From Oscillospiraceae bacterium (GTDB taxonomy: Bacteria > Bacillota > Clostridia > Oscillospirales > Acutalibacteraceae), in NCBI GenBank assembly GCA_015066345.1, contig SVOQ01000006.1, positions 41,035-105,034 of the forward strand: a stretch of DNA of 64,000 nucleotides, written 5' to 3'. The position numbers were made by a program, and so were the translations under genes. This document shows, one piece after another, positions 2,702-51,472 of the stretch. How positions within the stretch are numbered: the first letter of the stretch is position 1; every line of letters starts with the position of its first letter. Below the pieces are notes generated by a model. The model did not search any database. It saw only the letters and a list, made by a program, of their open reading frames with translations, and was not told where the DNA came from.

Positions 2702-2819
2702 TACCTTTTTTAAAAAATGCAAAATGCAAAATTATAGGGGCTAACGCCGATTATAATGCGTAATGCGTAATTATCAGAATTGTGTTAGCTATTATAATCA
2801 CATTTTGCGTCAGCAAAAT

Positions 2820-2888
2820 ATATCGCATCCAAGGGATATATCGCGTGTCAACATATCGCACCGAAGGTATATCGCTTCACGAAGTGAA
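2820..2888. repeat. ATATCGC / mini-hairpin array
   Basis: Four ATATCGC units separated by ATCC-AAG-GGAT, GTGTCAAC, ACC-GAA-GGT and followed by TTCAC-GAA-GTGAA. Confidence 0.85.
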
Positions 2889-2913
2889 TATTATAATCGG
2901 CTTTGCCCTTACG

Positions 2914-3074
2914 GTGAAGTTTTTTATTACACAAAAAGTGAAGTTGTGCTAAAGCACAGTGAAGTTTTTATCTGTCTATAAAAGTGAAGTTAAGTTTGCC
3001 TCAAAATCACTTGCGAAGCAAACTTCACTGCTCTGCAACTTCACTACGAAGTAACTTCACTTGCCATCAGGCAA
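2914..3074. repeat. GTGAAGTT / mini-hairpin array with inverted right half
   Basis: GTGAAGTT at 2914, 2938, 2959, 2984; AACTTCAC at 3021, 3037, 3053; spacers such as GTGCTAAAGCAC, TACGAAGTA, TTGCCATCAGGCAA are self-complementary. Confidence 0.88.
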
Positions 3075-3128
3075 ACTTAGTTGGCACAAGTGCCATTCCT
3101 CATTCCTAATTAATTTTTCATTCATATA

Positions 3129-14160: not shown

Positions 14161-14420
14161 AAATTCGTAATTCATAATTCGTAATGCGTAATTAAAGGGG
14201 CACTTCGTGCCGATTGTAGATAAAGTTGTTGTAACGCGAAGCCTTATCATCCCTGTTCGGCTCTGCCGAATAGGGAGGGGGACCGCGTAGCGGTGGTGGG
14301 TAGTTCTCTTGCGGTTTTTCTTAGTTTGATAGAAGCAATATCTTCGCATTACAACTACCTTATCTATAATTCGGCTTTGCCCCGATAATTTTGCATTTTG
14401 AATTCTGCATTTTGCATTTT
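14161..14420. repeat. MITE-like intergenic repeat, copy A
   Basis: Terminal inverted arms GGGGCACTTCGTGCCGATTGTAGATAAAGTTGTTGTAACGCGAAG and CTTCGCATTACAACTACCTTATCTATAATTCGGCTTTGCCCC; core shared with 51298, 59703 and 63640 loci. Confidence 0.8.
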
Positions 14421-14449
14421 AAAAAGCTCCGCATTTCTGCGGAGCTTTT
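14421..14449 (-). terminator. Terminator of hydrogenase operon
   Basis: AAAAGCTCCGCATTTCTGCGGAGCTTTT. Confidence 0.85.
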
Positions 14450-42514: not shown

Positions 42515-42644
42515 GTGATATTCCGCCTATGGCGCAGTGATATATTTTACAATGCAAAATGTGATATTTCTGCCTATGGCAGAGGTGATATTCTATTCGC
42601 AAGCAACTCGGCTTTAGCCGAATATCACTACAAAGCAATATCAC
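42515..42644. repeat. GTGATATT / mini-hairpin array with inverted right half
   Basis: GTGATAT(T) at 42515, 42537, 42561, 42585; AATATCAC at 42621 and 42637; spacers CGCC-TAT-GGCG, ATTTT..AAAAT, TCTGCC-TAT-GGCAGA. Confidence 0.87.
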
Positions 42645-42683
42645 TTTCGAAGAAAATAAAACTCGCATAAGCGAATAGAACTG

Positions 42684-42715
42684 AAAAAGACTTCACAAAA
42701 GTGAAGTCTTTTTTC
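42684..42715 (-). terminator. Terminator downstream of tRNA-Ala
   Basis: AAAAGACTTCACAAAAGTGAAGTCTTTTTT. Confidence 0.75.
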
Positions 42716-42791
<76 letters not shown>

Positions 42792-51297: not shown

Positions 51298-51452
51298 AAT
51301 AACCGCAAGAGAACTACCCACCACCGCTGACGCGGTCCCCCTCCCTATTCCGGCAAAGCCGAAACAGGGATGATAGGCTATCGCTCTACAATTACTTAAT
51401 CTATAATCGGCTTGCCCCTTTAATTACGAATTATGAATTACGCATTAAGCAT
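51298..51452. repeat. MITE-like intergenic repeat, copy B
   Basis: AACCGCAAGAGAACTACCCACCACCGCTGACGCGGTCCCCCTCCCTATTCCGGCAAAGCCG...GGGATGATAGG; right end CTATAATCGGCTTGCCCCTTTAATTACGAATTATGAATTACGCATTA. Confidence 0.82.
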
Positions 51453-51472
51453 TAATATTACCAGGGACAATT

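Follow-up and report, generated by a model that had tools for sequence, protein, structure and literature searches.

In REP/RAYT systems, palindromes and a short constant word surround a single gene, and many copies lack the gene. The STRR sequences of cyanobacteria are tandem repeats of a heptanucleotide, and the ring protein TRAP reads evenly spaced triplet repeats in a leader and limits expression. According to the introduction of PMC4679880, heptanucleotides outnumber the other classes of tandem repeats in most genomes surveyed, with polymerase slippage suggested as a reason. The intervening-sequence protein (IVP) family is known from the intervening sequences (IVSs) of 23S rRNA, for example in Coxiella (PMC4990558), and is related to the Avd protein of diversity-generating retroelements (PMC10053308). 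One solved IVP relative is mentioned in PMC4990558, which cites a Xanthomonas structure, as a pentameric ring. Gut-1 RNA (RF01706) was described as a noncoding RNA candidate of the human gut only (Weinberg et al. 2010; PMC2864571).

We analysed a 64,000-nucleotide stretch of DNA (hereafter, the window) from an Oscillospiraceae bacterium, in which two separate array elements lie in the intergenic region between rpmG (minus strand) and hprK (plus strand). A first-pass annotation had listed four copies of ATATCGC, four of GTGAAGTT and three of AACTTCAC with palindromes between them, and all of these are present, with starts at 2820, 2838, 2853 and 2869 for ATATCGC, at 2914, 2938, 2959 and 2984 for GTGAAGTT, and at 3021, 3037 and 3053 for AACTTCAC. 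The palindromes are as described except for GTGTCAAC, which is poor. The word, which had been taken to be a 7- or 8-mer, is constant, but its invariant unit is 7 nucleotides (GTGAAGT, ACTTCAC or ATATCGC). The last of the eight letters of GTGAAGTT is part of a hairpin, in which its partner is the A preceding the next word. The arrays had also been treated as one architecture, a view that does not hold: they are separate elements, and the ATATCGC array represents the class a second time, independently. The observation is thus confirmed as real rather than due to chance, and its earlier interpretation is partly supported.

The GTGAAGT/ACTTCAC element spans 169 bp on the minus strand (2914–3082), where it reads AACTAAG...ACTTCAC. 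Its dispersed copies and its full-length alignment to the leader at locus L124 identify it as a two-arm IVP leader without an open reading frame (ORF). In arm A (3017–3082, minus strand), a TTGCC-loop-GGCAA hairpin is followed by three words (3054, 3038 and 3022) and the hairpins TACTTCGTA and TGCAGAGCA; this arm is Gut-1-like by a match to RF01706 below the gathering threshold. In arm B (2914–2991, drawn on the plus strand), the hairpins TTTTTATTACACAAAAA, TGTGCTAAAGCACA and TTTTATCTGTCTATAAAA accompany four words, at 2914, 2938, 2959 and 2984. Arm B is evident from the sequence, from the array detector and from another sub-gathering RF01706 match. The closing arm of arm A, AGGCAAACTTA (2991–3001, minus strand), is an inverted repeat complementary to 3069–3079, and the same closing pair is present in other leaders. 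Adjoining the 5' (A) end of the element is the palindrome GGCACAAGTGCC (3083–3094, no strand assigned), which we read as the insertion-site hairpin given that the A end meets a hairpin or terminator in most copies.

The second element (2802–2888, plus strand) is a single-arm array of four ATATCGC words with hairpins ATTTTGCGTCAGCAAAAT, ATCCAAGGGAT, GTGTCAAC (weak), ACCGAAGGT and TTCACGAAGTGAA. It has copies in the genome, and the same word stands beside IVP genes at L090–L095 and L110–L112. Short spacer-less 7-bp repeats border, and partly break up, the two arrays. Those at 2718–2778 (plus strand) read AAAATGC AAAATGC AAAATTA ... TAATGCG TAATGCG TAATTAT with a central palindrome and resemble the heptads beside class-2 IVP genes in the genus; the ATATCGC element appears to be nested in them. 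On the opposite side, ATTCCTC ATTCCTA ATTAATT (3095–3115, plus strand) is by analogy taken as a short heptad repeat. Elsewhere in the window, short lag-7 heptad repeats occur at 14386–14423 and 51420–51457, and among the lags from 4 to 14 only lag 7 gave matches anywhere in the window. Another gene-less two-arm leader, with words GTGATAT/ATATCAC, lies at 42515–42690 on the minus strand, right behind the terminator of a tRNA-Ala gene (42716–42791).

The layout in the window is GTGAAGT, TGTGCTAAAGCACA, GTGAAGT on the plus strand, GTGAAGT, TACTTCGTA, GTGAAGT, TGCAGAGCA, GTGAAGT on the minus strand, and ATATCGC, ATCCAAGGGAT, ATATCGC in the neighbouring array. Linkers of 7 nucleotides are found for both GTGAAGT and ATATCGC, such that the words are in register after the hairpins fold out. 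As a single strand, the two-arm element folds with z = -4.3 as RNA and -3.3 as DNA, and the ATATCGC array by itself folds more weakly (z = -1.8). No IVP gene was matched on the contig of the window (C47), no rRNA was matched in the window, where the element has rpmG and hprK as its neighbours, and Rfam at the gathering threshold returned only a tRNA across the whole window.

In this genome and its relatives, copies occur at IVP-linked loci as well as solo. The 169-bp GTGAAGTT element is present at several sites of its own genome, mostly with 90–97% identity including the spacers and in part truncated, in several species of the same genus and, weakly, in one genome of another family; the ATATCGC array has a separate set of copies elsewhere in the genome. 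The copy behind a terminator on contig C46 of the window's genome (G000) is absent from the orthologous gap in G008 and G018, each of which has its own terminator. Several relatives likewise lack the C1 and C21 copies at orthologous sites, and the position of the C21 copy in G000 is occupied in G018 by a heptad repeat. No clean target-site duplication is readable because the terminators themselves differ between species, and the element ends (AACTAAG and ACTTCAC) are not inverted repeats of each other. An adjacent IVP is lacking for most of the gene-less copies, and the solo copies act like dispersed repeats, which is the ordinary part of these results. We conclude that the arrays in the window are almost certainly gene-less dispersed copies of the leader from a class of small genetic elements. 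Other repeats were encountered beside these copies. At L060 (G018, contig C23), the GTGAAGTT element is split by a different GC-rich repeat inserted between two words, and a further dispersed repeat, GGGTAGTTCTCTTGCGGTTATTCTTC followed by CCTCGCC...GGACCACCGTCAGGTGG, has dozens of copies that often adjoin arrays (approximately 1550–1700 of L028 and many G000 loci).

The gene partner of these leaders belongs to the IVP/S23 family (PF05635) of four-helix-bundle proteins. At one ATATCGC locus (L045/L090), arrays lie on both sides of a 115-amino-acid ORF that matches PF05635 (23S rRNA-intervening sequence protein; E = 1.4e-20). The protein of L124 matches TIGR02436 (E = 5e-27), and 2RLD is a PDB relative of IVP (E = 4e-21); a match to NF033474, which bears on the relation to Avd, is below its cut-off. 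IVP ORFs are present in 20 of 22 genomes of the genus, with up to ten per genome. IVP genes are under strong purifying selection (median dN/dS 0.043 for 153 pairs, which are not independent events because some come from related loci). Many subfamilies are preceded by a word of their own: ATATCGC, ATATCAC, ATTTCAC, ATTTCAT, ATATCAT, ACATCAC, ACTTCAT or ATATCGA. Over its full length, the window element can be aligned with the leader that precedes the intact IVP gene of L124 in the sister species G018, as far as the ribosome-binding site of that gene; the window thus holds the leader but not the gene. The L124 subfamily is not found in the window's genome, where the best IVP has 56% identity, and so the GTGAAGTT copies of that genome may be inactive. 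Accordingly, the window copy lacks the gene, may be inactive and represents the leader of a word-hairpin element linked to IVP. Two other proteins were rejected as constant partners. A reverse transcriptase, the trait sought from diversity-generating retroelements with their Avd relatives, has no RVT_1 match in G000 and is present in only 4 of the 22 genomes, and no Y1 transposase was found in the element-rich genomes G006, G008 and G014. A comparison with the PADLOC defence families gave no match.

The association between array and gene was established with a detector that demands three copies of an exact 7-mer, using dinucleotide shuffles of 400–420 bp as controls. Under this strict setting, 46 of the genus's 90 IVP genes had an array ahead of them (a few of these being plain heptads), compared with 1 of 450 shuffles, and a GTDB scan of gut Clostridia yielded arrays upstream of 71 of 73 IVP genes, compared with 1 of 365 shuffles. 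About half of the IVP genes in the genus lack hairpin arrays and have heptads or nothing instead. Among the most canonical Pfam members of the IVP family across the phylum, hairpin arrays are mostly absent (4 of 30 positive, those being plain heptads), and a test for heptads was therefore made.

This test revealed that IVP genes without hairpin arrays are often flanked by contiguous 7-bp repeats, in Bacillota, cyanobacteria and Treponema. Self-similarity at lag 7 is seen at 32 of 50 loci of the genus and 15 of 30 of the phylum, and every other lag tested is positive at no more than three loci, apart from the harmonic at 14. Plasmid and phage records, mostly cyanobacterial with one from Treponema, have lag-7 heptads at 10 of 14 IVP loci; often a word precedes the gene and the reverse complement of that word follows it (e.g., AATTCGC and GCGAATT). 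Some of the surrounding loci merit separate mention. On a contig filed as a gut phage (L345; MT835590.1), an IVP gene lies behind an ATTTCAT word-hairpin array, and the plasmid loci L333, L336, L343 and L344 have IVP genes, mostly accompanied by heptads, that lie between cas genes or between hsdS and hsdR and so ride as passengers in defence operons. At L266, between tmRNA and ybaK, a solo array is followed by an ORF of approximately 120 amino acids and of no assigned family (MNFENMDWADSN...), and relatives have an IVP gene or nothing at this place.

Intact elements follow a common plan, in which a two-arm array of 7-nucleotide words with hairpins paired end to end is followed by the IVP/S23 gene and sometimes by a partial copy of arm A. 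Read towards the gene, this plan starts at a terminator, another hairpin or a stop codon, and continues with a first hairpin, the 5' arm of which recurs in inverted orientation where arm A ends. Arm A has three words with hairpins, and arm B has three or four inverted words with hairpins before the promoter and/or ribosome-binding site. The direct left half and inverted right half remarked on in the first-pass annotation hold across well over a hundred related loci. Copies are located at the 3' foot of a terminator or of some other palindrome: among 61 GTDB loci with a readable start, which are not all independent because they come from one query clade, a hairpin ends within 14 nucleotides of the element start in 58 (shuffles: 101 of 305), and 53 have a tRNA gene no more than 260 bp away. 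A single gap between tmRNA or tRNA and ybaK contains arrays with differing words in different species. In promoter-less elements inserted into operons (L090, L095 and L124), the last word adjoins the ribosome-binding site, and in tRNA-linked elements (L099 and L118), promoter-like sequence overlaps or directly trails the last word.

The proposal that spacers vary yet remain self-complementary was well founded across well over a hundred related loci, although within the window's genome the spacers of the GTGAAGTT copies are mostly conserved and turnover is seen only between diverged copies. Watson-Crick stems of at least 4 bp form in 72% of 522 spacers from 121 elements, compared with 3% of shuffled spacers, and distinct spacers compared position by position are 90% paired (1352 of 1502 cells), with three or four Watson-Crick types at most slot pairs. 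Hairpins stop exactly at the word edge in about 60% of cases, and a further quarter run 2 bp past it because ATTTCAT words themselves permit this extension. The modal single-stranded linker across the class is 7 nucleotides. Mapped on the IVP tree, the word changes 22 times, compared with a shuffled mean of 92.7 (0 of 200 shuffles as low), and the fraction of the 2765 pairs with less than 60% protein identity that share a word is printed as 0.00; as some pairs come from related loci, the pairing and word counts are likewise not independent events. Hence the word co-varies with the IVP protein, and the hairpin sequence is free. Mismatches include 38 G-U and 22 A-C pairs (10 and 4 in a first set), a borderline but suggestive excess.

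It had been stated that this architecture has no established name, but each arm of the window element matches Gut-1. In a search by E-value, arm A (3017–3083) scores 31.3 bits (E = 2.6e-4) and arm B (2912–2995) 25.9 bits, below the gathering threshold of 50, and intact IVP leaders score 52–81 bits, above it. The cmscan alignment of the window copy covers model positions 1–77, with three hairpins split by a constant word that is GUGAAGU rather than GUGAAAU. Gut-1 thus corresponds to one arm of the element, and the window copy is a divergent relative of it.

We hypothesize that IVP reads heptads, a proposal drawn from sequence comparisons to which we give about even odds. An IVP ring would bind successive heptads along one single strand, most likely the transcript, with one 7-nucleotide word per protomer, and would accept either contiguous heptads or words spaced by hairpins. 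Each hairpin would fold out, which would place the spaced words in the same 7-nucleotide register as the contiguous heptads beside other IVP genes. Such reading by a ring would explain most simply why the word is constant while the spacers vary freely and yet stay paired. RNA is somewhat favoured over DNA as the target, because G-U mismatches outnumber A-C mismatches, albeit weakly. Binding at the leader would also limit IVP synthesis, given that the last word adjoins the ribosome-binding site or overlaps or precedes promoter-like sequence. Gene-less copies might be mobilised in trans by IVP together with a further enzyme, or might be relics. Counting against this explanation are the many gene-less copies with no IVP nearby, the missing L124 subfamily in the window's genome, the IVP genes (among them the most canonical Pfam members) that lack hairpin arrays, the unreadable target-site duplication and the want of a consistent transposase or reverse transcriptase partner. 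For the overall explanation, that these are IVP-linked word-hairpin elements read as heptads, we estimate a probability of roughly 60%.

Other explanations account for parts of these findings. The elements could be REP/RAYT-like or MITE-like parasitic DNA, whose words and hairpins are sites of a single-stranded DNA transposase acting in trans and whose IVP gene is a passenger or repressor. Dispersed gene-less copies at the feet of palindromes, folding as single-stranded DNA and two Y1-family hits in the window's genome fit this proposal, but the lack of Y1 hits in element-rich relatives (G006, G008 and G014), the close tracking of the IVP tree by the word and the absence of terminal inverted repeats make it unlikely. 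Alternatively, the arrays could be independent structured RNAs, the form in which Gut-1 was first annotated, that serve in host or trans regulation and are associated with IVP only secondarily. This would be in keeping with the strong pair covariation and the weak G-U excess on the ORF strand. The 103 Gut-1 hits above the cut-off in the genus represent 89 loci, of which 76 have no listed IVP ORF within 450 bp; however, the other 13 are beside IVP genes where 0.11 would be expected (approximately 118-fold). Since, in addition, the array accompanies 71 of the 73 IVP genes from one large clade, the presence of copies differs between close species and the window copy sits between divergent genes with no obvious transcript across it, we consider this account quite improbable.

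Quasi-palindrome mutational repair is an established process, and the arrays could lack function altogether if slippage kept the words alike while template switching at quasi-palindromes re-perfected the hairpins, which would yield pairing without selection. The absence of a strong strand bias among mismatches agrees with this idea, for which we nevertheless see little chance, because it leaves unexplained why hairpins end exactly at word edges, why words track the protein tree and why the two-arm plan is conserved in unrelated sequences. Finally, positions directly behind terminators (58 of 61) and tRNA genes (53 of 61) could mean that the host benefits from the arrays as insulators or terminator boosters and retains them downstream of tRNA and protein genes. 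Orthologous genes with a bare terminator and no array, and variation between species in the word or heptad element that occupies a given site, render this very hard to credit.

If the reading of heptads by IVP rings is correct, these elements could form a previously unrecognised class of mobile element, with a protein-specific heptad as recognition code and spacers that need only fold out, a simple reason for their changing freely while kept paired. The interesting part is the link between word and protein together with the common 7-nucleotide register: natural protein-word pairs are available for working out a recognition code, and one rule, 7-nucleotide words in register read by a ring protein, would connect Gut-1 RNA, the IVP/S23 family and bacterial 7-bp tandem repeats. 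On a broader reading, which we hold less likely than not, IVP/S23 rings, and perhaps Avd, would be sequence-specific single-strand readers of 7-nucleotide repeats, and much of the bacterial heptanucleotide load (STRR-type, Gut-1 and word-hairpin arrays) would consist of IVP elements, whether active or dead. The open literature, to which the search was confined, yielded no account of hairpin or heptad arrays linked to IVP, so that priority is unproven.

The elements resemble REP/RAYT systems in their palindromes, short constant word, single gene and many gene-less copies, but their protein is a four-helix bundle without a transposase fold, and the 7-nucleotide word follows the protein phylogeny. 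The proposed logic is that of TRAP by analogy only, as the protein, the repeat length and the genetic setting differ. With the STRR and other heptanucleotide repeats of cyanobacteria they have a 7-bp period in common, and in cyanobacterial plasmids such repeats flank IVP genes in inverted orientation; STRR-type words are contiguous, whereas hairpins separate the words of IVP-linked arrays. The 23S rRNA IVSs with an S23p/IVP ORF encode the same family (PF05635/TIGR02436) and are likewise small, with complementary flanks, and considered selfish (PMC4990558). In contrast to these, IVP-linked arrays lie outside rRNA genes, behind tRNA or protein-gene terminators or stop codons, and carry word-hairpin or heptad arrays. 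Gut-1, in which three hairpins alternate with GUGAAAU words (PMC2864571), has the same plan as the IVP leaders. It was described without a gene partner and from the human gut only, whereas here it is one of two inverted arms ahead of an IVP gene, and IVP arrays, whose words vary widely, are found in numerous genomes from the herbivore gut.
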